From Syntrophobacterales bacterium (lineage in GTDB: Bacteria; Desulfobacterota; Desulfobaccia; Desulfobaccales; 0-14-0-80-60-11), in NCBI GenBank assembly GCA_020060385.1, contig JAGVAH010000017.1, positions 1 through 61,230 on the forward strand: DNA of 61,230 bases. The letters are read 5' to 3'. How positions within the stretch are numbered: the stretch's first letter is position 1; each line of letters begins with the position of its first letter. Below, piece after piece: positions 4,045-17,240 of the stretch. Position numbers and translations under genes: made by a program. A model generated the notes under the pieces. The model was not told the DNA's origin. It did not search any database and was given only the letters and a program-made list of their open reading frames with translations.

Positions 4045-7000
4045 CTAAATCTCCGGCAGGCGTTCGGCAAAGCTGCCGTACAGCACCGGTAGGATGATCA
4101 GTGTCAACAAGGTGGAGGTGAACAGGCCGCTTACCACTACCACCGCCAGGGGCCGTTGCACCTCCGATCCGGGACCGGTGGCGAAGAGCAAAGGGATTAA
4201 TCCCAGGATGGCCACCAGGGCTGTCATTAAGACCGGGCGCAGCCGCCGGTTGCAACCTTCTTGCACCGCCTCTTCCAGGGGCACGCCCTCCTGCCGCAGC
4301 TGGTTGATCTGGGAGACCAAAACCACCCCGTTCAACACTGCCACCCCGAAAAGGGCGATGAAACCCACCGATGCCGGGACGCTCAGGTAGAGGCCGGTGA
4401 GGAGCAGGCCCAGGATGCCGCCGATGAGCGCCAGAGGCAGGTTCAAGATAATAAGCGCGGCATAACGCACTGAGTTGAAGGTCAGAAAAAGCAGCAGGAA
4501 GATAACGGCGATGGTCACCGGGACAATCAGCATGAGGCGCCGCATGGCCCGTTCCTGGTTCTGGAAGGCCCCGCCCCAGGTGAGGTAATAGCCGGGAGGC
4601 AAGTTCAAGCGGGCTGCCAGGAGGCTCTGGGCTTCGGCGACCAAGCCGCCGATGTCCCGGCCTTCCACGTTGAACTCCACCACGATCCGGCGACGGGCGT
4701 CGTCCCGGCTGATCTGGACCGGGCCCTCTTCTTCAGTGATCGTCGCCAGATCGGCCAAGGGAATGCGGCGGCCGCCGGAGGCCTCCACCAGGATGTTGCC
4801 GATGGTCTGGACGTTGTTGCGGCGTTCTTCCGGGAAGCGCACCAGCACGTCCACCCGTAACTGGCCCTCGATGATCTGCGTGGCCGCCTTGCCGCCCACC
4901 GCTGTTTCAATGATCTCCTGGATATCAGCCACGTTGATGCCGTAGCGGGCAATTTTCCGGCGATCGATCCTGATGTTCAGGTAAGGTTGCCCGGCCACCT
5001 GCTCCACTCGCAAATCAGCGACGCCCTTAATCCCCTTTAGGAGACGGCCCGCCTCTTCGCCCTTGCGCAGCAAGGTTTCCATGTCGTCACCGAAAATCTT
5101 CACCGCCACCTGAGACTTGACCCCGGAGATAAGTTCGTCCACCCGGAGCGCAATGGGTTGGGAGAGGTTAATGCCGATACCCGGAATCTTGGCCAGTTCG
5201 GTCCGCATCTTATCCACCAGTTCTTCGGTGGTGCGGACGGTCTTCCATTCCGAACGGGGCTTAAGCACCACGACGGGGTCGCTGATGTTCGGCCCCATGG
5301 GATCGGTGGCGATTTCCGCGGCGCCGATCTTGGAGACCACCGCGGCCACTTCGGGGAACTGCATCATCACCTGTTGGGCCTGGCGCTCGATTTCCACCGA
5401 CTGGCCCACGGACACGGAGGGCAAACGGATGATCTGGGGGGTGAGATAGCCTTCATCCATGCGGGGAATGAACTCGGTCCCCAGGAAGGGCACCATGGCC
5501 AGAGAAAAGACCAGCAAGCCCGCGGCCCCCAGCACCACAAGGCGGCGATGGCCCATGGCCCAGGCCAGGGAAGGCCGATAGAGGCGCCGGGCCCACTTGA
5601 GGAGCAGGCTTTCCCTTTCGGGGCCGCGCTTGAGCAGGTACGAGCAAAGCGCAGGAACGGCAACAATGGACAGAACCAGGGAGGCCAGCAGCGCAATGGC
5701 CACGGTGAAGGCCAGGGGAGCGAACATCTTGCCCTCCATGCCCTGAAGGGTCATGATGGGCAGGAAGGTGATAGCGATGATCAGTTCCCCGAAGAGGCTC
5801 GGTTTTCGCACCTCCAACACGGCCTCCAGCACGGTGCGCATAAAGCCTCGGCCGGTATCGGTCTCTCCCAGGTGGTGCATGACATTTTCCACCTGGATCA
5901 CCGCCGCGTCCACGATCATGCCGATGGAAATGGCCAGGCCGCCAAAGGTCATGAGATTGGCGGTCAGCCCCGTCAGGCGCATGACAATAAAAGTCATCAG
6001 CGCGGCCAAAGGCAATGTCAAGGCGATGACTGCCGCCCCCTGGAGGCTGCGGAGAAACAGATAAACCACCAAAATGACCAGGACCACCCCCTCGGCGAGG
6101 GCCTTGCTCACCGTCGTGAGGCAGTCCCGCACCAGGCCGGTGCGGTCGTAAAAAGCCTCCAGTTTGATGCCGCCGGGAAGGATGCCGCCCTTATTGATCT
6201 CTTTAACCTTTTCTTTGACCGCGGCCACCACCTCCCGGCCACTGCCGCCCCGGATCATCATAACGATGCCCACCACGGCTTCGCGCTTGCCGTCCTTCAC
6301 CGTGGCGCCCCAGCGGGTGGCCGGGCCTTCCTCGATAACGGCCACATCCCGCACCAGCACCGGGGTGCCTTCGACTTCTTTGAGCACCACTTCCTCGATG
6401 TCTTCTTTGCCCCGCATCAGGCCGATACCCCGCACCATGGCCTGCTCACTCCCCTGGTTCAGAATATTGCCGCCAGCGTTGACGTTGTTCTGGGCCAAAG
6501 CGTTAAATACTTGTTGCAGGGTTAAATCGTACTTCCGCAGGCGGTCGGGATCGACGTTCACCTGGTACTGCCGCACCTGGCCGCCGAAGGAATTGACTTC
6601 AGTCACTCCGGGCACGGTCTTCAAAATAGGCCGGACGATACCGTCCTGCACGGTGCGCAGGCGCATCAGGCGTAATTCTTCCTCCCGGGGCGAGGCCGGG
6701 GGCGGAGCATCCGGTTCTTCCAGGGTATACTGATAAATTTCCCCCAGACCGGTGGATATGGGCCCCATTACCGGTTCGGCGCCCTTGGGAAGCTTTTCCT
6801 TGGCCTCGATGAGCCGCTCCAGCACCAGTTGCCGGGCGAAATAAATATCCACCTTATCCTCAAAGACAATGGTCACCAAAGACAACCCGAACTTGGAAAG
6901 GGAGCGCAATTCCACCATGTCCGGGAGTCCCGCCATCTGGACCTCGATTGGGAACGTGACCTGTTTTTCCACTTCTTCGGGCGACATGCCGGGCCAGGTG

Positions 7001-7155
7001 GCGATCACCTGCACCTGGATATTGGTGACATCCGGGAAAGCGTCCACCGGCAATTTGAGGGCCGCGTAGGACCCATAGCCTACCAGGCCGGCCAGGAAAA
7101 CGAGGATCAGAAAGCGCTGGCGGAGACAGCCTTGAATGATTTTTTCAATGCCCAT
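4045..7155 (-). CDS. CusA/CzcA-family heavy-metal efflux RND pump
   Basis: A 1036-residue inner-membrane proton-driven exporter of normal family length. The N terminus has the family opening (first helix about 14-32, then LPVDAFPDVTNIQVQV and GMSPEEVEKQVTFPIE). Two sets of transmembrane helices surround two large periplasmic loops. The proton-relay helix 4 reads SIGMIVDAAVIQVEN; it lacks the DFGxxxDGA signature of the divalent-cation CzcA type and resembles the IGxxxDAA form of the Cu/Ag class, so monovalent copper or silver is the better guess. The start overlaps the adaptor gene by 11 bases, and GGAGG lies just before it. It works with the adaptor and outer-membrane factor upstream. Confidence 0.95.
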   Translation of the reverse strand: MGIEKIIQGCLRQRFLILVFLAGLVGYGSYAALKLPVDAFPDVTNIQVQVIATWPGMSPEEVEKQVTFPIEVQMAGLPDMVELRSLSKFGLSLVTIVFEDKVDIYFARQLVLERLIEAKEKLPKGAEPVMGPISTGLGEIYQYTLEEPDAPPPASPREEELRLMRLRTVQDGIVRPILKTVPGVTEVNSFGGQVRQYQVNVDPDRLRKYDLTLQQVFNALAQNNVNAGGNILNQGSEQAMVRGIGLMRGKEDIEEVVLKEVEGTPVLVRDVAVIEEGPATRWGATVKDGKREAVVGIVMMIRGGSGREVVAAVKEKVKEINKGGILPGGIKLEAFYDRTGLVRDCLTTVSKALAEGVVLVILVVYLFLRSLQGAAVIALTLPLAALMTFIVMRLTGLTANLMTFGGLAISIGMIVDAAVIQVENVMHHLGETDTGRGFMRTVLEAVLEVRKPSLFGELIIAITFLPIMTLQGMEGKMFAPLAFTVAIALLASLVLSIVAVPALCSYLLKRGPERESLLLKWARRLYRPSLAWAMGHRRLVVLGAAGLLVFSLAMVPFLGTEFIPRMDEGYLTPQIIRLPSVSVGQSVEIERQAQQVMMQFPEVAAVVSKIGAAEIATDPMGPNISDPVVVLKPRSEWKTVRTTEELVDKMRTELAKIPGIGINLSQPIALRVDELISGVKSQVAVKIFGDDMETLLRKGEEAGRLLKGIKGVADLRVEQVAGQPYLNIRIDRRKIARYGINVADIQEIIETAVGGKAATQIIEGQLRVDVLVRFPEERRNNVQTIGNILVEASGGRRIPLADLATITEEEGPVQISRDDARRRIVVEFNVEGRDIGGLVAEAQSLLAARLNLPPGYYLTWGGAFQNQERAMRRLMLIVPVTIAVIFLLLFLTFNSVRYAALIILNLPLALIGGILGLLLTGLYLSVPASVGFIALFGVAVLNGVVLVSQINQLRQEGVPLEEAVQEGCNRRLRPVLMTALVAILGLIPLLFATGPGSEVQRPLAVVVVSGLFTSTLLTLIILPVLYGSFAERLPEI

Positions 7156-8503
7156 GCTCCGCCTCCAGACTCTCTTTCTCCAGTTCGGACTTGAGGGTGA
7201 AGGCGCCCTGGACCACCACCCGCTCGCCTTCCTTCAGGCCCGCCAGCACCTCCACCCGGCCGTCCGCCTTCGGGCCGGACCTGATAACCCGCTTGAGATA
7301 CAGGCCGGGTTCATGTTCCACAAAGACATACTGCTCCCCGCCGCTGCCCACCACCGCGGCTTCGGGCACGTTGAGGGCCATCCGGGAACCGGAGGACACC
7401 TTAATGGTGGCGAACATTCCGGCTTTTAGCTCGCCCTTGGAGTTATCCACCCTGACCCGGGCCCGGGTCATGCGGGTGGCCTTTTCCACCGCAGCGGCGA
7501 TGTAGTCTATGGCGCCGGCAAACTCTTCCTGGGGCAGGGAACTGACCCTGATAACCACGGGAGAGCCAACTTTGACCAGGGGCAGGTCTTTCTCCGGTAT
7601 CTGGACAAAGCACCAGAGGGTGGTGGGGTCGGCCACCGTGAAGAGTTCTTCATCCGGTTTGACCACCAAGCCCGGAGTGGCCTTGCGGTCCACCACCCGC
7701 CCGGAGATAGGCGACCGCAGAGAAAAGGTGCTTTCCACTTCGGCATGAAAGCCGGGACCTTTTTTCCGCTTGCCCTTGAACATGCGCGCGATATCGGCAT
7801 CGGTGAGTCCCAGGAGATGGAGGCGGTTTTCGGCATAGTCCCGTTCCGCCTGCGCCAGTTCGAACTTGGCCTGGCGCTCCTGAAATTCGGCCTGGCTGAT
7901 GGCCTTTCCCTCCCACAGCAGACGCGCTCGCGCAAAGGCCTTCTGGGCCACATTGGCTGAGGCAACCGCCTGCATAAAGGCGGCCTGGGCCTGGCCCAAT
8001 TCCACGCTGTCAATGACGGCCAGCGCTTCTCCCTGCCGAACTTGCGCTCCATAATCAGCGAGAATCTTGACTATCCGGCCCGAAATTCTGGAGCTAACGC
8101 GTGCCATCTTCTCCTCGTTGAAAACCAGTTCGCCGGTAAGCTGCACCCTGTCAGCCAGCGATCCGGCGGTAACCGGTTCCACCTTGAGATTGGCCCGCTT
8201 CACCGCTTCGGGGTTTAACTTTACCTGGCCCGGCGGTTGGTCTCCATGTGGGTGATCATCGTGCTTATCGCCTTTGAGCTTTTGGCCCGCGGTCGGGTGA
8301 TCATCGTGCTTGTGGCCGTCGGGTTTATGAGCTCCCGGTTTTTGGGCTTCATGTTCGTGGTTCTCATGCTGATGGGGCTTTTGTCCCCCATCTTTATTAG
8401 GGTCTTTTTTCTGGGCGCTTACGGGAAAGGAAAGCAAAGCTACCGCCGCCAGGATCAGAACCCCTACGATCATCCCTTTCGGCCTGAAAAAATTGCGAAT
8501 CAT
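7145..8503 (-). CDS. RND efflux periplasmic adaptor (CusB/CzcB type) with His-rich N terminus
   Basis: A 452-residue membrane fusion protein. A signal peptide (residues about 1-30) leads into a roughly 60-residue stretch packed with His, Asp and Lys (repeated HKHDDHP-type units), a likely metal-scavenging tail. Then come the usual domains: biotinyl-lipoyl (GRIVKILADYGAQVRQGEALAVID), an alpha hairpin, a second lipoyl half (SPISGRVVDRKATPG), the beta barrel and a membrane-proximal domain (VPEAAVVGSGGEQYVFVE). It bridges the pump and outer-membrane factor. Its stop overlaps the pump start, and its own start follows the outer-membrane factor gene by three bases. Confidence 0.95.
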   Translation of the reverse strand: MIRNFFRPKGMIVGVLILAAVALLSFPVSAQKKDPNKDGGQKPHQHENHEHEAQKPGAHKPDGHKHDDHPTAGQKLKGDKHDDHPHGDQPPGQVKLNPEAVKRANLKVEPVTAGSLADRVQLTGELVFNEEKMARVSSRISGRIVKILADYGAQVRQGEALAVIDSVELGQAQAAFMQAVASANVAQKAFARARLLWEGKAISQAEFQERQAKFELAQAERDYAENRLHLLGLTDADIARMFKGKRKKGPGFHAEVESTFSLRSPISGRVVDRKATPGLVVKPDEELFTVADPTTLWCFVQIPEKDLPLVKVGSPVVIRVSSLPQEEFAGAIDYIAAAVEKATRMTRARVRVDNSKGELKAGMFATIKVSSGSRMALNVPEAAVVGSGGEQYVFVEHEPGLYLKRVIRSGPKADGRVEVLAGLKEGERVVVQGAFTLKSELEKESLEAEHGH

Positions 8504-8506
8504 GGG

Positions 8507-9742
8507 TTAGATACCTCCCCCGGCTATGCGCCACAGTTCCGCGCGGGCCAGCCAGTATTCCAGGAGCGCCTTATAATAATCCTGCTCCGTGGCCCGGTAG
8601 ACGCGGCGGGAATCCAATAAGTCCAGCAACCCCGTCTCTCCATGCCGGTAGGTGAATTCGGCCAGGCGCAAAGATTCGGCCGCCTGGGGCAGAATATTCT
8701 TCTGATAAGACTCCACCTGGCGCCGGGCCACCATGTAGAGGCTGTACTGAGCCGCCAGCTTCGTTTCCAGTTCCTGGCGGGTGAGGCTGAGGTCGGATTC
8801 GGCCTGACGCCTGGCGGCCGCGGCCTTATCCACTTCGCCGCCCTTGCGGTTCCACAGGGGCAGGGGGATGGAGATGCCCCCGCCCACGGCGCTCAGGTCA
8901 ATATCCCGGTTGTAGAAGGCTTTCACGGTCACGTCCGGCACCCAGGCCTGGCGCTCGGCGGCCAGGGTGCTCTCCGCCTGGCGCACCGCGGCATTTTGGG
9001 CGGATAGGAGGGGGTGGGCGGACAAGGCGGCCTCACGCCAGCGCGCCAAGGGAATGACTTCATCCAGAGCAGTGAATTTGCCGGTAATGGAGTAATCAGC
9101 AGGCAAATTCTCCAGTAAAAACCGGTTCAATACCTGCCGGTCTCCGTCCTGGAGAGTTTTAGCCTTTTGATACTCCCGCTCCAAGGTATGAAACTCCACC
9201 TGGGCCTTAAGCAGTTCCAATTGACGACTCTCACCCAAGCGGACGCGTTTTTCTATCAGATCGAGAAGTTGTTTGGCGGAATCCAGATTCTCCCGGGCCA
9301 CCTTGACGAATTGCTCATCGGCCAGCAACCGGTAGTAGAGTTCCCGCAACTTGGCGATGACATTAAGCTCTTCGTTGGTCACCAACTTCCGGGCGCTATC
9401 TATCCCGAAGCGGGCGGCTTCTTGTCTCCTGGCCCGGCGTCCCGGCCATTCCAGGGTCTGGGAGAGGGCCACCGTGTAACCTACACCAGTTTCAGGTCCT
9501 GGAATCTCCCTTTCCCTGGATGCCGTGCCCTCCACCTGGGGATTGGGATATTGTTTGGCGATGCGCAGTTCGGCTTCGCTTTTTTTGACTTCCTCACCAG
9601 CTTTCTTCAAGCCGGGATGGGTCTTGAGGGCGATCTCCTCCAATTCCTGCAACGAATAGCCCTGGGGACCAGCCGATGCCGGCGCCACAATGAGCAATAC
9701 CAGGCATAAAGCCGCCATAAGGGCCAACCCTTTCGGGGTCAT
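8507..9742 (-). CDS. TolC/CusC-family outer-membrane efflux protein
   Basis: A 411-residue outer-membrane channel subunit with a signal peptide ending at about ASA (residue 24). The mature part has the two repeated helical-hairpin halves of the family: YSLQELEEIALKTHPGLKKA near the start and a second copy around ALSAHPLLSAQNAAVRQAE. The end, LLDLLDSRRVYRATEQDYY, is typical of the CzcC/CusC group. GGAGG lies at good spacing before the ATG. It is the first of the three efflux genes; the adaptor follows after three bases. Confidence 0.93.
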   Translation of the reverse strand: MTPKGLALMAALCLVLLIVAPASAGPQGYSLQELEEIALKTHPGLKKAGEEVKKSEAELRIAKQYPNPQVEGTASREREIPGPETGVGYTVALSQTLEWPGRRARRQEAARFGIDSARKLVTNEELNVIAKLRELYYRLLADEQFVKVARENLDSAKQLLDLIEKRVRLGESRQLELLKAQVEFHTLEREYQKAKTLQDGDRQVLNRFLLENLPADYSITGKFTALDEVIPLARWREAALSAHPLLSAQNAAVRQAESTLAAERQAWVPDVTVKAFYNRDIDLSAVGGGISIPLPLWNRKGGEVDKAAAARRQAESDLSLTRQELETKLAAQYSLYMVARRQVESYQKNILPQAAESLRLAEFTYRHGETGLLDLLDSRRVYRATEQDYYKALLEYWLARAELWRIAGGGI

Positions 9743-9819: not shown

Positions 9820-10098
9820 TCAATACTTGGGAGGTTGAAAGATGCTATGGGGAAGGAGATTTGATGTTGGATGCAGGGTAATCGGATGGTAAAAAGCGAC
9901 TTGCAAAGGAGAGCGGAGTCCAAAGTTGGTCAAGAGGCAAGACAGGTGGCAGGCACACGAGCAGACGCAAGAAGGTAGGGGGGCCTGGCCCTGGCAGGTT
10001 CCGTCGTCGCAGATTTCCCCGCCAAGCGCCAACGTAGGCAAGAGCATAATGAGGAAAACTGCGACGTAGAGTCCTTTATAACCCCGCATTACCTTCAT
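9820..10098 (-). CDS. Small Cys-rich exported protein
   Basis: About 92 residues, with a signal peptide (hydrophobic MLLPTLALG) followed by a Cys cluster: GEICDDGTC and then CVCSCACHLSC. The rest is rich in His, Pro and Leu without obvious domains. The start is uncertain: ATGs at 10098 and 10089 are both possible, and the frame is open to 10149. It lies between the response regulator and the outer-membrane factor gene, in the same direction. The seven or more cysteines with nearby His suggest periplasmic metal binding. I do not recognise a family. Confidence 0.6.
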   Translation of the reverse strand: MKVMRGYKGLYVAVFLIMLLPTLALGGEICDDGTCQGQAPLPSCVCSCACHLSCLLTNFGLRSPLQVAFYHPITLHPTSNLLPHSIFQPPKY

Positions 10099-10145: not shown

Positions 10146-11540
10146 TCAACTTATATCGGGCTTTTCGTCAGGATCGCCGATCCGATATTCTTGGAGTTTA
10201 TTTAGCAGGGTGCGCCGGGAAATGCCCAGAATCCGGGCCGCCTTCGACTTGTTGCCATGGGTCTCTTCCAGGGTCTTTATGATTAGTTGCTTCTCCATGT
10301 CCCGCATCGACACGCCCGCCTTGATGCCGACCTCGCTGGCAACTGCTGCGGGGCCCAAACTTCGCAAGTTCAGAGGCAAGTCTTCAATGCGGATATATTC
10401 CCGAGGGCACATGATGACCGCCCGCTCGACGGCGTTTTCCAGCTCACGCACGTTACCCGGCCAGTGGTAGCGTTGAAAGGCGTCAAGGACGCCTGGTTCG
10501 AACCCCTTGATGGCACGCCGGTTTTTTTCTACATAAATCCTGAGAAAATAGTCGGCGAGGAGGGGGATGTCCTCCTTACGCTCCCTTAGCTGCGGCATGG
10601 TTAAGGAAACGACGTTCAACCGGTAATAGAGATCTTCCCGGAAACGGCCGGCCTGAACTTCCTGGGTAAGGTCCTTGTTAGTGGCGGCAATCACCCTGAC
10701 ATCCACCTTGATGGTGCGCGTCCCGCCCACCGGTTCGAACTCCTTCTCCTGGAGGACGCGCAGCATCTTGGCCTGGGTATTGAGGGTCATGTCGCCGATC
10801 TCATCCAGGAAGATGGTGCCGCCGTCGGCTTGCTGGAACCGGCCCTCCTTGCGGGTGACCGCACCGGTGAAGGCGCCGCGTTCATGGCCGAAAAGCTCGC
10901 TCTCCAGAAGGCTTTCCTGCAAGGCGGCGCAGTTGAGTTTTACCAGGGGGTTCTTCCGGCGCGGGCTGTTTTGGTGGACAGCATTGGCGATTAACTCTTT
11001 ACCCGTCCCCGATTCACCCAGGATCAACACCGTTGCTTCGGTGGGCGCCACCAAAGCCAGCGTCTCGAATATTTCCACCATTTTGGGGCTGCGCCCGATG
11101 ATCCCAGAAAAATCGAACCTGGCGTCCAGCCTTTCCTGCTGAACCAGAATCCCTTGCTCCAGCTCATGGATATGAAGAACCTTGCGCATCTTTAAGGTAA
11201 GCGCTTCCATATCCAGGGGCTTGGCCACAAAATCCTGGGCCCCGGCTTTGATGGCCTCTACCGCCGACTCGATGGTGCCGTAGGCCGTCATCATGATGAT
11301 GGGCATGGCTGTGCTGATAGCCCTCATCTGGCGCAGGGCCTCCAGGCCGTCCATCCGGGGCATCTTGAGATCGAGCAGAACCAGGTCAAAGGCTCGCTCT
11401 TTCACCGCGGCCACGGCCTGCAACCCGTCTGCCGCCTCGCTTGCCTTGAAGCCCTCGTCTTCCAGGTAGGCCCGCAGCATCTGGCGGTGCCCGGCTTCAT
11501 CGTCCACAATCAGTAAAGACTTCCCGTCCATTTCCACCAC
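10146..11540 (-). CDS. Sigma-54-dependent response regulator, ZraR/NtrC type
   Basis: A 464-residue activator with three parts: a receiver (phosphoacceptor Asp57 in LLDLKMP), an AAA+ domain with Walker A GESGTGKE and the sigma-54 contact loop GAFTGA, and a Fis-type helix-turn-helix at the end (SKAARILGISRRTLLNKL). It will be phosphorylated by the ZraS-like kinase encoded divergently at 12926-14656 and will activate sigma-54 promoters; two perfect ones lie nearby. The start could be GTG at 11540 or ATG at 11531; neither has an ideal ribosome site. The stop abuts the frame of the Cys-rich exported protein. Confidence 0.93.
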   Translation of the reverse strand: MVEMDGKSLLIVDDEAGHRQMLRAYLEDEGFKASEAADGLQAVAAVKERAFDLVLLDLKMPRMDGLEALRQMRAISTAMPIIMMTAYGTIESAVEAIKAGAQDFVAKPLDMEALTLKMRKVLHIHELEQGILVQQERLDARFDFSGIIGRSPKMVEIFETLALVAPTEATVLILGESGTGKELIANAVHQNSPRRKNPLVKLNCAALQESLLESELFGHERGAFTGAVTRKEGRFQQADGGTIFLDEIGDMTLNTQAKMLRVLQEKEFEPVGGTRTIKVDVRVIAATNKDLTQEVQAGRFREDLYYRLNVVSLTMPQLRERKEDIPLLADYFLRIYVEKNRRAIKGFEPGVLDAFQRYHWPGNVRELENAVERAVIMCPREYIRIEDLPLNLRSLGPAAVASEVGIKAGVSMRDMEKQLIIKTLEETHGNKSKAARILGISRRTLLNKLQEYRIGDPDEKPDIS

Positions 11541-11612
11541 GTTCTCGGTTCGGTTTTATTAAGGTTTATAATAGGTATTATAACAGGTCGATCAAGGAGA
11601 GCGCTTCGAAGC

Positions 11613-11651
11613 AAAAACATCCTTCCCGGGGCCTGGCAGCCGCCGGGAAGG
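11613..11651 (-). terminator. Intrinsic terminator after the small exported-protein genes
   Basis: A 9-base perfect stem (11621-11629 with 11643-11651, CCTTCCCGG/CCGGGAAGG), loop 13 bases, followed on the minus strand by a T-rich stretch (11617-11613). It ends the transcript that starts at the sigma-54 promoter at 12518-12533 and separates it from the regulator gene. Confidence 0.8.
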
Positions 11652-11700
11652 ACGTTCAGGATGGTTCAGTGGACCTCATTTATTGGCAGGCCCGTTTTTC

Positions 11701-11808
11701 TTACCAGCCCCAGGGAGGGGGCGGCCCCCAGCAGCAGGCCATCGCCGCGCCAGCACTGAGAGCCAGGACCAGGATTGTTGCCAGAACCACCAGGCTTTTC
11801 TTTTTCAC
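11701..11808 (-). CDS. 35-residue exported peptide, paralogue of the CPM-repeat protein
   Basis: A GTG start at 11808 is preceded by GGAGG at eight bases. The product is a signal peptide (MKKKSLVVLATILVLALS, then AGAAMA) and a mature part of about 11 residues, CCWGPPPPWGW. The signal sequence is nearly the same as that of the 102-residue protein at 12171-12479, which shows duplication. The mature tail shares the Cys/Trp/Gly/Pro bias of its neighbours. It is the last gene before the terminator at 11613-11651, so it belongs to the sigma-54-driven transcript. A metal-binding or envelope-stress peptide is likely, but the function is unknown. Confidence 0.7.
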   Translation of the reverse strand: MKKKSLVVLATILVLALSAGAAMACCWGPPPPWGW

Positions 11809-11852
11809 GGTTTGCTTCCTCCATTTGAAGATATTTGATCAAAGGAACTGCA

Positions 11853-12146
11853 TTACCAACAACCCCAGCCGCAGCCCCACCAACCTGAATATTGGCCGGG
11901 GGCGGCGTTTTTGGAACCGGCGGGATGATAATAACCGCAGGTCCAACCGGGATAATATGCCGAGCCGTGATAATGCGGACCGACCGGGTCGGTGGGGGCC
12001 GCCTGGCTATCGGTCGCTGGAACAGGCTGGACGGCCTGGACAACCGGCTCAGTGTTGCCGGGGTTCTTTTTAGCGGCCATGGCAGTGCCTGCCGCAAGAG
12101 CCAAAGCGAGGATGGTTGCCGCTATTACCATGATTTTCTTAGACAT
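11853..12146 (-). CDS. Small exported protein with Cys/Trp/Tyr-rich tail
   Basis: A 97-residue protein with a signal peptide ending at AMA (residue 24) and GGAGG before the ATG. A Pro/Ala/Thr-rich linker leads to an aromatic and Cys-rich end: HYHGSAYYPGWTCGYYH and WWGCGWGCW. It lies between the CPM-repeat gene and the 35-residue peptide gene, and shares the same transcript from the sigma-54 promoter. No family is recognised. Three Cys and several His fit periplasmic metal binding, in line with the ZraSR-like regulation. Confidence 0.75.
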   Translation of the reverse strand: MSKKIMVIAATILALALAAGTAMAAKKNPGNTEPVVQAVQPVPATDSQAAPTDPVGPHYHGSAYYPGWTCGYYHPAGSKNAAPGQYSGWWGCGWGCW

Positions 12147-12170
12147 GACTTAAACCTCCGTTTATTTTGA

Positions 12171-12479
12171 TTACCGACGACCCCAACCTCTGGCGGTATA
12201 GTACCCGCTGCTGGGGGTGTAATTCTGGGGTGCAGTGTTATCGGTTTGATAGTAGCTTCCCGGAGCGGCCACCATGGGGCAGTAGCCGTTGCCCGTCATG
12301 GGGCAGTAATAATTACCGGGGGTTCCCTTCATGGGGCAGTAGTAACCGGACGATCCGTTCTTGGTATATCCCATCCCCGAGCCGCCCCACATGCCGCAGC
12401 CACCCCAGGCCATGGCCGCGCTGGCCCCGAGAGCCAGGATCAACAGGGTTGCCAGAACAACTAAGCTTTTCTTTTTCAA
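12171..12479 (-). CDS. Exported protein with three YCPM repeats
   Basis: A 102-residue protein starting with TTG at 12479, with GGAGG eight bases upstream. After a signal peptide (MKKKSLVVLATLLILALG, then ASAAMA) it has WGGCGMWGGSGM and three copies of a YCPM motif (YYCPMKG, YYCPMTG, YCPMVA). The motif recalls the YxCPMHP core of the small heavy-metal-binding domain found in Cu exporters, but the following His is absent. Cys-Pro-Met triplets could bind Cu(I). It is the first gene after a perfect sigma-54 promoter, so it should be the most strongly induced member of the cluster. Confidence 0.8.
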   Translation of the reverse strand: MKKKSLVVLATLLILALGASAAMAWGGCGMWGGSGMGYTKNGSSGYYCPMKGTPGNYYCPMTGNGYCPMVAAPGSYYQTDNTAPQNYTPSSGYYTARGWGRR

Positions 12480-12517
12480 GGTCGAAGCCTCCGTTTGTTT
12501 GTTTTGAAAGACATAGA

Positions 12518-12533
12518 AGCAACAGGTGTGCCA
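12518..12533 (-). promoter_or_regulatory. Sigma-54 promoter for the small exported-protein genes
   Basis: On the minus strand TGGCAC, five bases, TTGCT: a perfect match to the -24/-12 consensus. It lies 39 bases before the TTG start at 12479, with the transcript start expected near 12507. The ZraR-like activator encoded next door is the obvious regulator. No clear upstream activator site was found by eye. Confidence 0.9.
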
Positions 12534-12925
12534 AATCGATTTTTTGGCTAATTACAGAAAAATGCAGGTATTTTTATTAGGGAACCAAATTCTGTTAATG
12601 AAACTGACTAAAAATTGCCAAGGGCTGGAATCGGCTGTGAAGATTTTGCGCAACATGAGGTTTTTATCCTGTGGCATCAGGTCTTAAGGGAAAGGCTTCC
12701 TGCCACCACCGAAACCGTCGCTGCCGTAAGACCATCGACGGTGGCGGCGGCAGGGTTTTTTTGATATAAAAAAGGAGTGGAAATAAGAACATACGGCAAA
12801 GGTTGGCATGTATTTGAGGAAAGGATCATTTAGGGCAGCAACAATGATCGGCCAGAACAGCTCAACCTGCCAACCGCATGCAGGCGCAAATTTTTTCAAG
12901 CAATTATAAGGATGATTCCTGACAT
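12534..12925. other. Divergent intergenic region with an orphan terminator
   Basis: About 390 bases between the sigma-54 promoter (minus) and the kinase gene (plus). It is AT-rich at 12534-12620. The only strong structure is the plus-strand terminator at 12700-12762. A minus-strand frame (12684-12899) crosses this hairpin and has no ribosome site, so I do not call it. No promoter for the kinase was clear; only a weak AAGGA lies 13 bases before its ATG. Confidence 0.6.
12700..12762 (+). terminator. Strong plus-strand intrinsic terminator with no gene before it
   Basis: The left arm 12700-12720 pairs with 12736-12753: 7 perfect pairs (ACCGTCG/CGACGGT), a three-base bulge, then 11 pairs with two G-T wobbles, followed by GG and seven T. 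It lies 164 bases before the kinase start. With no gene upstream on this strand it either ends a small RNA starting at about 12540-12690 or acts as an attenuator in the kinase leader. Confidence 0.8.
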
Positions 12926-14656
12926 ATGTCGCAACCTCTGCGCCATATCATCGCAGCTATCGTCGGCTCGGTACTGATACTGGCCGGCGCCTTGGGCTAT
13001 ATAACCTACCGCAATTTCCATCGCGAAGCCGAACTGACTGAAAAGCTCATGTTCGACAAGGGCATCACCATTATTCGCTCGGCAGAGGCGGGCTTTCGAT
13101 GCAATATGCCCGCTGCTTCTTGTATGGCAGAGCCCAGTTGTCGGCGCAGTCTCCAGGAAATGGTGGTCGATTTGGCCCGGGAAAACGATCTGGATTTCCT
13201 GGTGATCTTCGATGCCTCCGGCAAAGTAATGGCGCACAACGACCCGTCAATGCTGGACAAGGAGATTCCCGCCCTGGCTGCCTATGTGGCGAAGCAGGGG
13301 CATCCTGACGGTGATTTCATGGGTCCAGATACCTTCGTTGTCGGCGGCATCTTCAATCCTTCCACCAGAAACCCTGAAATCCTTTCCCCGGACAAGAATC
13401 CCAGGATCGGCGATGGCTTATCAAAGACCGATTTTTTAATTTTGGTGGGCTTGAAAAGGGGCTGGCTGAACGAAGCTCAGCGGGTTGATCTGCGCTACGC
13501 CTTGCTGCAGGGAGGCATCCTGCTCCTGATGGGCCTGGCCGGCTTTTTTTTCATCTTTATTATTCAAAGCTATTACCTCGTCAACCGAACCCTGTCGGGG
13601 GTGACCACCCTCACGCAAAAAATCATTGAAAGCATGCCCAACGTATTGGTGGCTTTTGACGGCTCCGGCAAGGTCATCGAGGCTAACTCGGCTGCCAAGC
13701 AGTTATTGGGCATTACCAGGGGCCAGATGGTGGGGGATGATTTTCATGATTATCTTGGCGCTTCCGCCGGCCCCTTGTTGCGCCGGGTCAAAGACGGCCA
13801 GATAGTTCTCGACCAGGAAATACTCCTGAAAGGAGAGACGGCTATCCCGGCCGCCCTCACGGCTGCGCCGTTGACCTGGGAGGATGGCACCGGAGCGGTA
13901 CTCATTATCCGCGACCTGCGCGAACTGAGGGCGATGGAGCAAAAGGTCAAACGCGCCGAAAGGCTGGCCGCCTTGGGAAGGCTGTCGGCCAGCGTGGCCC
14001 ACGAGATCCGCAACCCTCTGAGCTCCATCAAGGGCTTCATCCAATACTTCAAAAAGAAATTTCCAGCAGGCTCCAAAGAGCAGGCATATACCGAGACCAT
14101 GGTGGCCGAGGTGGACCGCCTTAACAACGTCATCACTAACCTCCTGGACTTCACCCGGGCCAAGGAACCCAAGTTTCAAGAATGCGACCTGGCGGAGGTG
14201 GTTCACCATGCCCTGCGCCTGGTGCGCCCCGATGCCCAGGCCAGAGGGGTAAAAATCCTTGAGAGGGTGCCGGAGCAGCCGCTGCTTGCCAGGGTGGACA
14301 GGGATCAGCTTATCCAGGTGTTCCTGAACCTGTTTCTGAACGGATTGGAGGCAATGCCGGACGGCGGCACCCTTCAGGTCGGCATAGAGACCGGCACTGA
14401 TGGCAATTTCCAGGTAGAAATAACGGACTCGGGGCCCGGAATCAGAGAAGAAGACCTGCCGCAACTCTTCGAGCCGTTTTTTACCACCAAGTCCAGAGGG
14501 ACCGGATTAGGTCTGGCCGTGGCCCTCCAGATCATGGAGAACCATCATGGGGCTATCGGTGTGACTAGCCGGCTGGGCGAAGGCACGACCTTCAAGGTAA
14601 GTCTTCCTGCTGATGGATTATCTGCCTCGGCAAGCGAGCCAGGAGAGTCGGCCTAA
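12926..14656 (+). CDS. ZraS-like membrane sensor histidine kinase
   Basis: A 576-residue kinase: helix 1 at about residues 8-25, periplasmic sensor domain to about 190, helix 2 at about 196-215, a PAS domain (IIESMPNVLVAFDGSGKVIEANSAA, quoted in part), then HisKA with phosphoacceptor His359 (VAHEIRNPLSSIKGF) and the HATPase with DSGPGI and TGLGLAV boxes. The layout is that of ZraS/HydH. The sensor part holds a Cys/Met cluster at about residues 56-69 (CNMPAASCMAEPSC) just after helix 1, a good candidate metal site. It is divergent from its regulator; its targets are the sigma-54 promoters on both sides. Confidence 0.92.
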   Translation: MSQPLRHIIAAIVGSVLILAGALGYITYRNFHREAELTEKLMFDKGITIIRSAEAGFRCNMPAASCMAEPSCRRSLQEMVVDLARENDLDFLVIFDASGKVMAHNDPSMLDKEIPALAAYVAKQGHPDGDFMGPDTFVVGGIFNPSTRNPEILSPDKNPRIGDGLSKTDFLILVGLKRGWLNEAQRVDLRYALLQGGILLLMGLAGFFFIFIIQSYYLVNRTLSGVTTLTQKIIESMPNVLVAFDGSGKVIEANSAAKQLLGITRGQMVGDDFHDYLGASAGPLLRRVKDGQIVLDQEILLKGETAIPAALTAAPLTWEDGTGAVLIIRDLRELRAMEQKVKRAERLAALGRLSASVAHEIRNPLSSIKGFIQYFKKKFPAGSKEQAYTETMVAEVDRLNNVITNLLDFTRAKEPKFQECDLAEVVHHALRLVRPDAQARGVKILERVPEQPLLARVDRDQLIQVFLNLFLNGLEAMPDGGTLQVGIETGTDGNFQVEITDSGPGIREEDLPQLFEPFFTTKSRGTGLGLAVALQIMENHHGAIGVTSRLGEGTTFKVSLPADGLSASASEPGESA

Positions 14657-14659
14657 TTG

Positions 14660-14675
14660 TGGCACCGAAATTGCA
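14660..14675 (+). promoter_or_regulatory. Sigma-54 promoter for the Gly-rich exported protein
   Basis: TGGCAC, five bases, TTGCA: a perfect -24/-12 match, only four bases after the kinase stop codon. The transcript should start near 14686, 28 bases before the ATG at 14714. It matches the site at 12518-12533 and places this gene in the ZraSR-like regulon. Any activator site must lie inside the kinase gene or further upstream. Confidence 0.9.
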
Positions 14676-14713
14676 GAAATATAAATTGACTCAAATTTAC
14701 GATTAGGTAAAAT

Positions 14714-15115
14714 ATGAACTTTTTGCGCCTGATACTAATATCGATGCTCCTGGCGCTCTCAATAATAGGGCGAGCTGATGCAGGTTCTTACTGCGGCTGG
14801 GGTGGCGGGATGCGGGGAGGTCCGGCTCCACAAGTTGGGGGCTCTTCCCCCGGCGCTTGCGGCCCAGGTGGATGGGGCGGCTCAAGCTCCATGAGTTTCG
14901 GCATGTGCGGCCCTCCGAATGGCGGGGCCGCGGCGAGCACCGGGCAGGTCCTCAACCTCCTCAATAATTATCTGAAGAACCAACCTAACCTCAGACCCGG
15001 CAGGCTTACCGCCGTCGGCAACTATTGGGAGGCGGAGATCCTCGACGCTCAAGGCAACCTGGTAAACAAGCTCCGCATCGATCCCCGCACCGGCTGTTTC
15101 TATTACCAGAAATAG
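14714..15115 (+). CDS. Exported Gly-rich protein with PepSY-like C terminus
   Basis: A 133-residue protein with a signal peptide ending near ADA (residue 23). The N-terminal half is low-complexity Gly/Pro/Ser with four Cys (YCGWGGGM, GACGPGGW, FGMCGPP). The C-terminal half is ordered: VLNLLNNYLK and GNYWEAEILDAQGNLVNKL followed by DPRTGCFYYQK, which resembles a PepSY-type strand-helix unit; that similarity is by eye. The sigma-54 promoter at 14660-14675 puts it under the metal-responsive system. It is the last host gene before the phage. Confidence 0.8.
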   Translation: MNFLRLILISMLLALSIIGRADAGSYCGWGGGMRGGPAPQVGGSSPGACGPGGWGGSSSMSFGMCGPPNGGAAASTGQVLNLLNNYLKNQPNLRPGRLTAVGNYWEAEILDAQGNLVNKLRIDPRTGCFYYQK

Positions 15116-16260: not shown

Positions 16261-16767
16261 TCAGGCGCTCCTGATCTGGTTGTATAAAAGAACCATGCGC
16301 CGGGTCCAACCTTTGCCGAAATTACCCCAGGTCTTCAGGTCCATGTAGCGGCCCAGACGGAGAAAAATCATGTCCGTGGCCAGCCAAAGCGGATCAGCCA
16401 GCTTCACGGCTCCCAGAGTTTGGGAGCCGTGACGACCGTCCACGGCATCCTCCGGCAAATACCCTTGATTAACCAGGGCTTCCTGCAAGACCTTAACGGC
16501 CGAACTCACCCCCTGATTGACGGCGCAGTCGAAAGACACCAGGGCCACAACATCCGGCAGTTCATCACCAAGGATGGGGGTCCAGTAATCCCGGGCATAG
16601 ATCGCCCTGGCACCATCTCTGGTCAGATGCTCGATGTCCAGATTGGGGTAGGAACGTTTGCAGATGCCGAATTTGGTTTCCCCTCCGGGATCAGCCGGGT
16701 TGCTGACATACCCTCCTTCAATGCTATCCCCCAGGACAAATTCGAGTGCGGCGTTCAGGTCACCCAT
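16261..16767 (-). CDS. Endolysin, glycoside hydrolase family 108 type (ZliS-like)
   Basis: A 168-residue muramidase. The family's catalytic region is seen near the start, EGGYVSNPADPGGETKFGI, where the first Glu is the predicted catalytic acid. The middle has YWTPILGDELP and FDCAVNQG, and the end has the peptidoglycan-binding-3 part (VDGRHGSQTLGAV). The ATG at 16767 is chosen because GGAGG lies eight bases upstream; the frame is open to 16815 without a ribosome site. No signal peptide is seen, so release needs the holin. It cleaves the host cell wall at lysis. Confidence 0.9.
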   Translation of the reverse strand: MGDLNAALEFVLGDSIEGGYVSNPADPGGETKFGICKRSYPNLDIEHLTRDGARAIYARDYWTPILGDELPDVVALVSFDCAVNQGVSSAVKVLQEALVNQGYLPEDAVDGRHGSQTLGAVKLADPLWLATDMIFLRLGRYMDLKTWGNFGKGWTRRMVLLYNQIRSA

Positions 16768-16811
16768 GTGCTCTCTCCTCCTCTCTTTGAACAACCGCCC
16801 GGGATGAGCGG

Positions 16812-17240
16812 TCATTTTACCGGCACAACTTTGATCCCCTTACCTGCCAGGGCCAACACAATAGCCTGTTGGCCTTCCTGTACCCTGGTAAAGCCTTCAT
16901 CCATCTTGTTTTCCAGGCCCTTAAACTTTTCAAACAGGATGTCCACCGCCTTATCGTTGGCTTCCTGCTTGGTCTCCAGCGTCCCGTGGCCTGGGCACTT
17001 GGTAGGGTCGTTGCAAATTACTGCCACGGTCGGCGGCAACGGGTTTGAAGCAGGCGGCTGGCCGAAATGGAAGCGCAGGCCGCTTTTAAACAGCAGAAAG
17101 CCGATAAACACGAAGACGGCTGTAACCCCAAAGCCGCCCACGATGGCGCCGGCGATCATGTTGGCCTGATAGAGATCCACAATATGCTGGCCTGGCGCCA
17201 GGGCCGGAGCAGTTTCCGCAGCCCAGAGAAGGGAAATCAT
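16812..17240 (-). CDS. Membrane protein with C-terminal helix, lysis region
   Basis: A 142-residue protein with one strong membrane segment at about residues 28-50 (AGAIVGGFGVTAVFVFIGFL) and a soluble tail with CNDPTKCPGHG followed by a long charged helix (DKAVDILFEKFKGLENKMDEGF). It lies directly upstream of the endolysin. An inner-membrane spanin or a second holin-type protein is possible; I cannot decide. The CxxxxxC-H segment is unusual for either. Confidence 0.6.
   Translation of the reverse strand: MISLLWAAETAPALAPGQHIVDLYQANMIAGAIVGGFGVTAVFVFIGFLLFKSGLRFHFGQPPASNPLPPTVAVICNDPTKCPGHGTLETKQEANDKAVDILFEKFKGLENKMDEGFTRVQEGQQAIVLALAGKGIKVVPVK

Follow-up and report, generated by a model that had tools for sequence, protein, structure and literature searches.

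The window, i.e. the whole stretch of 61,230 nucleotides that was analysed, carries a locus built around a membrane histidine kinase and an NtrC/ZraR-type response regulator. The kinase gene (12926-14656, plus strand) encodes a sensor region followed by PAS, HisKA and HATPase domains according to domain models, and its product scores highest with the AtoS and ZraS models. The regulator gene (10146-11531, minus strand) encodes a receiver domain (PF00072), an AAA+ domain with the GAFTGA motif (PF00158) and a Fis-type helix-turn-helix domain (PF02954), and the best PDB match of its product is ZraR (1ojl). These matches agree with the first-pass annotation, which had described a ZraSR-like pair. 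The kinase gene lies between two sigma-54 promoters and the regulator gene outside them, beyond three small genes. The NCBIfam equivalog cut-offs are missed by both proteins (518.6 of 760 bits for ZraR and 313.4 of 479 bits for ZraS). Close full-length relatives of the kinase were found in two congeneric genomes only (2/6 other congeners; 2/39 other relatives searched), while two more distant matches also pass an E-value of 1e-60; no relatives were found in viral contigs. The kinase is carried by three of the seven genomes of the genus, three of the other four being less than 92% complete. A Cys pair in the sensor region distinguishes it from related kinases: all three kinases of the genus have Cys59 and Cys72, whereas R-x-G-M or R-x-G-I replaces the first Cys in the six other kinases of the alignment. 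In the model of the sensor region, built from three sequences (mean pLDDT 62.6), the Cys residues lie close to where the first long helix ends.

Downstream of the promoter located on the minus strand, the order is CPM protein gene, YYPGW protein gene, 35-aa ORF, hairpin and then regulator gene. The CPM protein (12171-12479, minus strand; 102 aa, TTG start) is exported, rich in Gly, Tyr, Cys and Met, and contains three CPM motifs. It has an ortholog in L014 (4432-4755), the locus of relative G006, but no Pfam match, and no relatives were found in plasmids. The YYPGW protein (11853-12146, minus strand; 97 aa), also exported, combines a YYPGWxCGYYH motif with a Trp/Gly/Cys-rich tail; its relatives belong to L014 and to L015, the locus of relative G001, and it was found in 2 of 297 genomes of the phylum, both from the window's genus. 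The 35-aa ORF (11701-11808, minus strand) begins almost identically to the CPM protein, and its mature part would consist of the 11 residues CCWGPPPPWGW. A terminator-like hairpin (11596-11652, minus strand; fold z -3.1) marks the end of this small-gene operon. Since it intervenes, the regulator is probably outside the small-gene transcript; a sigma-70-like site lies ahead of the regulator gene (11595-11568). On the other strand, the kinase gene is followed by a gene (14714-15115, plus strand) encoding an exported Gly-rich protein, GLY, whose C-terminal domain is absent from Pfam and consists, in a structure model, of a helix and four strands.

The first product downstream of each promoter has, by eye, a signal-peptide-like start, and Gly, Cys, Met, Trp and Tyr are abundant in it. 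The residues Cys, Met, Gly, His, Trp and Tyr together account for 35-64% of the four small products in their mature form (cleavage sites set by eye). Domain model searches found no metal-specific domain in the small proteins. None of the locus proteins matches PF13801, in line with the initial proposal that the targets are not ZraP. That proposal also considered them as new, which is not supported for GLY, a member of an unnamed and widespread family (24/297 genomes of the phylum), while the YYPGW protein was found in the genus alone.

A CusA/CzcA-type RND efflux operon (4045-9742, minus strand) encoding an outer-membrane factor, an adaptor and a pump adjoins the locus, as reported initially, and the pump passes TIGR00914 with 1162 bits for a cut-off of 701.45. 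Its inclusion in the regulon is not supported: the operon has no -24/-12 site and such a pump is absent beside the locus in G001. A small exported Cys-rich ORF (9820-10098, minus strand) lies between the regulator and the pump. A shorter stretch of it gave a weak DUF6660 match, a similar ORF is found in G006 (L014:80-355), and we take it to be reminiscent of the small proteins that precede czc operons. At the other end of the locus, an endolysin-like gene (16261-16815; phrog_315, E 1.8e-43) lies amid long minus-strand ORFs that extend to about 26000. None of the seven other ORFs scanned near this gene has a PHROG match. The stretch from 16261 to about 26000, right beside the locus, is probably phage-derived.

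The TGGCAC-N5-TTGCW consensus has exactly two matches in the window, one on the minus strand (12533-12518) and one on the plus strand (14660-14675), the latter beginning 4 nt past the kinase stop codon. Dinucleotide shuffles of the window contain 0.09 matches on average. The genome, 4.15 Mb in 175 contigs, contains a single RpoN gene and nine exact matches, compared with two for the reversed pattern. Since several of the other seven sites precede classical sigma-54 genes (flagellar-type, ammonium-transporter-like or response-regulator genes, by eye), the consensus suits the host genome. Furthermore, -24/-12 sites occur at both places in the two kinase-bearing relatives (among the six other congeneric genomes searched). 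The counterparts of the minus promoter (L014 5157-5142 and L015 7631-7616) both have TGGCAC, and those of the plus promoter (L014 9730-9745 and L015 9690-9705) read TGGCAT-N5-TTGCA, where the window has TGGCAC. The two promoters of the first-pass annotation are therefore confirmed, as exact matches, the only ones in the window and at the same places in both relatives. The start codons are located 38 nt past each promoter (TTG at 12479 and ATG at 14714) and not at 28-39 bases, as had been given; the exported nature of the products, predicted at the same time, is consistent with their N-termini. A sigma-70-like match (14686-14713, 10 of 12 positions) that ends at the start codon was set aside. 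The consensus is short and the two sites could in principle have arisen by chance, but this is highly improbable given that none of 100 shuffles reached two matches, that the relatives share the places and that enhancer-like dyads lie upstream of one promoter; chance is refuted in substance for the minus promoter, the case being weaker for the plus promoter.

A search for enhancer sites had been suggested as a check, and it gave a positive answer at the minus promoter only. Two enhancer-like dyads of 17 bp, a proximal one (12605-12621) and a distal one (12636-12652), lie upstream of this promoter with starts 31 nt apart, and both are kept in both relatives. These dyads, the 35-aa ORF and the terminator-like hairpins had escaped the first-pass annotation. 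A scan with a distal and a proximal matrix detected such a pair at each of the five minus-type promoters of the genus, namely the three homologous promoters and two additional promoters of G006. The starts of the two sites are separated by 31 nt at the minus promoters of the relatives and by 32 nt at the two additional L014 promoters. These matrices were built with both sites from two of the five pairs and one site from each of the other three, whose second partner was then detected with them. Because the pairs had supplied sites to the matrices, a matrix-free criterion, framed after the first sites had been seen, was added (TG-N13-CA with at least three of six inner complementary pairs). Dyads of this type were found at -165 to -80 of four of the five genus minus promoters (shuffles: mean 0.21, largest 2, 300 runs). 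Outside the genus, they were found at 18 of 24 sigma-54 promoters of zraP or GLY genes, a set that includes groups of close kin (shuffles: mean 1.39, largest 5). The distal dyad pattern, TGYRAARATYYTGCGCA, has exact matches in the seven congeneric genomes at this locus only (one in G000, one in G001 and two in G006; none for the reversed control), a count that speaks for specificity and not for independent discovery since the pattern was built from the same four sites. Eight of the nine places scanned elsewhere in the genus with a one-mismatch copy of the distal dyad have no -24/-12-like site in the stretch. A one-mismatch copy in L064 is accompanied by three loose -24/-12-like sites, one of them 119 nt off, inside an ORF and with a poor consensus, and was read as chance. 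Altogether, the minus promoter is a well-supported predicted target of the adjacent regulator.

The two further sigma-54 promoters of G006 (L014 5142-7018) precede genes encoding an exported protein with MSGGG repeats (Met/Gly) and an exported protein of unknown kind. Since they carry the same dyad pair, the cassette has apparently been multiplied in this genome. Between the window's dyads and the kinase gene, a terminator-like stem-loop with a T-run (12672-12766, plus strand; fold z -3.2) could be either the end of a short unannotated transcript or a leader attenuator. A hairpin with a T-run is found in a similar place in G001 (L015 7784-7880, z -1.5). In a search for riboswitches and small RNAs, nothing reached the Rfam gathering score in the window, and nothing appeared at E-values up to 1 in 11530-12940.

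At the plus promoter, no enhancer-like dyad was found at -165 to -80 in any of the three genomes (0.15 expected from shuffles). The best place of the distal matrix near this promoter, a dyad-like string at the GLY start codon (14713-14729) whose equivalents are also the best places in L014 (9810) and L015 (9751), is not claimed as a site: it lies downstream of the promoter and is three to four letters off the pattern. The first-pass annotation had grouped both promoters in one regulon; because the plus promoter has no nearby dyad, membership in such a regulon is supported for the minus promoter alone. In this genus, the local enhancer of the plus promoter may have been lost or never have been present. 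The promoter might be served by the dyad pair located 2.0 kb away or by another activator, or GLY might be mainly read through from the kinase gene.

That a different sigma-54 activator serves the plus promoter, or that the promoter is non-functional and GLY mainly co-transcribed with the kinase, is possible but not what we would expect. The position of the promoter immediately after the kinase stop codon and the lack of an upstream dyad are compatible with this, and Desulfobacteria are described as rich in enhancer-binding proteins (PMC12316311). However, the TGGCAY-N5-TTGCA core survives in three genomes despite changes in the five spacer letters, and GLY genes have sigma-54 sites of their own in one or more other lineages. 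Control by the same regulator, with looping over the kinase gene from the dyad pair 2.0 kb upstream, appears unlikely, even though the core promoter is kept where the local dyad is absent and the pair-to-promoter distance is similar in the window (2.0 kb) and L015 (about 2.0 kb) and reaches 2.7 kb in L014. NtrC-type enhancers act from kilobases away in test constructs, but naturally remote enhancers are rare, which argues against looping, as does the presence of local dyads at about -115 and -158 of the GLY promoters of genus g49. Nevertheless, the plus promoter, whose core is conserved in three species that have no operator nearby, is a candidate example of natural activation at long range in bacteria.

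To place the locus in the phylum, related kinases were collected with a nine-sequence profile of the kinase N-terminal half, which matched 108 of 395 genomes at E-values up to 1e-40. The survey covered the 65 best-scoring matches outside the genus, weaker ones being left out; at up to 3.5 kb from the kinase gene, a ZraP-type gene is found in 31 of them, a GLY gene in six and neither in 28. A -24/-12 site lies by the start (between -160 and +60 nt relative to the chosen start) of 19 of the 31 ZraP-type genes and four of the six GLY genes, i.e. 23/37 together, compared with 0/37 for both the reversed pattern and a wrong spacer. The ZraP set, which was obtained with an iterated local model, includes one member with masked bases (L108); of the four members compared with Pfam, three exceed the PF13801 cut-off and the fourth, L072, matches the model below it (E 4.5e-5). 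The window genome has two PF13801 genes elsewhere, and both lack a -24/-12 site in the 300 nt upstream.

The g49 loci (three genomes) are organized as kinase-regulator-[sigma-54]-GLY and the kindred f11 loci as kinase-regulator-[sigma-54]-ZraP, and both kinds of effectors in these groups share a signal and an MMGPGYGG-type leader. Both groups have the same kinds of dyad motifs at about -114 and -156, 42-43 nt apart. In a quick tree of 60 regulators, whose support values should be read with caution, the window group falls in a 20-row set (SH-aLRT 99) with f11 (ZraP) and g49 (GLY). At least three changes between ZraP and GLY are needed on the regulator tree, which does not tell their direction. 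In both the window's genus and a distant one, GLY holds the place that zraP has in related loci, and an effector other than ZraP is found here and at least twice more in the phylum. No such exchange of effectors appeared among the papers listed by literature searches.

Outside the genus, a -24/-12 site was found in the 250 nt upstream of GLY at five of 28 loci (reversed control 0/28); three of these sites come from one genus and one is weak, and two of the 28 reads are short fragments. The GLY model, based on three sequences, has a mean pLDDT of 58; only the region of residues 76-132 approximately, which forms the helix and the four strands, reaches fair confidence. GLY was rejected as a PepSY member by sequence: none of 29 GLY domains matches Pfam PepSY (PF03413), one of them has a weak YPEB_PepSY1-2 match (E 0.047), and comparison of the GLY profile with 11 PepSY domains gave a probability of 0.8%. 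A Foldseek search with the GLY model gave no hit at E-values up to 0.001. In fold comparisons, the C-terminal domain of YpeB (Z 5.7) and UipA (Z 4.2) were tied with unrelated folds. In five other loci (L025, L028, L032, L034 and L043), the GLY domain follows a longer exported domain, for a total of about 300 aa.

Like E. coli ZraPSR, the locus has an NtrC-type GAFTGA regulator, a ZraS-like kinase, a -24/-12 promoter before a small exported-protein gene and, beside the regulated promoter, paired 17-bp operators with a 31-nt step; in E. coli K-12, the zraP-zraS spacer contains two inverted operator copies 31 nt apart, at spacer positions 94 and 125. It differs by the absence of zraP, by the regulator and kinase genes not forming one operon, by an enhanced promoter that heads three other small ORFs and by a second -24/-12 promoter without local operators. 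The purpose of ZraP in E. coli is debated, the protein being viewed as a metal buffer, a chaperone or a kinase brake. DVU3384 of Desulfovibrio vulgaris Hildenborough is presumably a ZraP-type gene. ZraR is reported to control mainly zraP and zraSR in E. coli (PMC8249747), to which ChIP-exo data added mgtA (PMC7657598); the latter report cites a paper whose title presents ZraP as a chaperone and ZraSR repressor. In the sulfate reducer D. vulgaris, the DVU3381 regulon likewise depends on a response regulator of the sigma-54 type; its listed targets are DVU3382-DVU3381 and DVU3384, and the available portion of the source, unlike our locus, names no GLY or CPM-type protein (PMC4641369). DVU3384 is called hypothetical in another report (PMC3333781). 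In D. alaskensis, zraP is reported to drop strongly under copper (PMC8836040), which speaks against a simple view of copper as inducer.

A small periplasmic protein gene beside a two-component system is also found in DbfQRS of Vibrio cholerae and in PepSY-protein two-component modules; DbfQ is reported to act directly on the kinase, and PepSY genes to lie near two-component genes far more often than by chance (PMC12714742). Unlike in these modules, GLY has no PepSY model match, the kinase is ZraS-like and the regulator is of the sigma-54 type. In Microbacterium, UipA is described as a metal-binding PepSY protein encoded beside the two-component system UipRS (PMC8963506); its match with the GLY domain is weak and structural, with no sequence match found, and unlike GLY it has two tandem PepSY domains.

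We propose, with a probability of about two in three, that the locus is a ZraPSR-type envelope/metal-stress module in which the exported effector has been exchanged. The membrane kinase would sense a periplasmic or envelope signal and phosphorylate the regulator, which would bind the two dyads, conserved sites three helical turns apart. Through its GAFTGA motif, the regulator would then activate the RpoN polymerase at the minus promoter (12518), giving two or three small exported Cys/Met/Gly/Trp-rich proteins whose function is most likely metal binding or protection of the envelope. The plus promoter would give the exported GLY protein, whose most plausible function is that reported for ZraP, namely to bind metal in the periplasm as an accessory and to damp the kinase. 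The Cys pair of the sensor makes it possible that the signal has changed along with the effector. Metal stress, named as the signal in the first-pass annotation, is a putative signal suggested by gene company. Such a module would work like ZraPSR, yet without ZraP and below the equivalog cut-offs it is not ZraPSR by those criteria. The surveyed kinase loci with neither effector nearby (28/65) count against our proposal, as do the missing dyad at the plus promoter, the missed equivalog cut-offs, the lack of a metal-specific domain match in the small proteins, the presence of the kinase in only three of the seven genomes of the genus and the drop of zraP under copper in D. alaskensis.

The module may instead answer general envelope damage and not metals, the small proteins being envelope-protective, either structural or chaperone-like; this is a serious alternative, to which we give slightly less than even odds. 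It fits with the activation of E. coli ZraR not only by zinc but also by ethanol and other forms of envelope stress, phosphate starvation being a further activator in the same report (PMC7657598), and with the filing of DVU3381 under envelope stress response (PMC4641369). On the other hand, the products are rich in Cys, Met and His, the kinase has a Cys pair in its sensor region and a CusA/CzcA-type pump adjoins the locus. In addition, an ORF resembling a copper-type P-ATPase (by eye; L067 3371-5647) adjoins a g49 kinase-regulator-GLY locus.

Beyond an exchanged effector at this locus, we tentatively suggest, as a view still short of an even chance, that ZraSR in the phylum could be a fixed chassis (kinase, sigma-54 regulator and tandem 17-bp enhancers three to four helical turns apart) carrying an exchangeable exported effector. 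ZraP and the unrelated GLY would have been swapped at least three times, in g49 within the same slot behind a similar Gly/Met leader, and the window's genus would have added a lineage-restricted small-protein cassette and a second promoter driven from an enhancer about 2 kb away. If this is true, ZraP and GLY are two unrelated solutions to one job, kinase damping and metal binding. Loci that share regulator, kinase type and operators but differ in their effector separate what the system needs from what ZraP is. If GLY damps the kinase, as reported for ZraP and DbfQ, feedback by a periplasmic accessory would be the conserved function.

Moreover, in two other loci, a -24/-12 site precedes tiny Gly/His/Cys-rich lipoprotein-like ORFs (42 aa for L116 8614-8742 and 61 aa for L125 3510-3695). 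Hence, the diversity of effectors may exceed ZraP and GLY.
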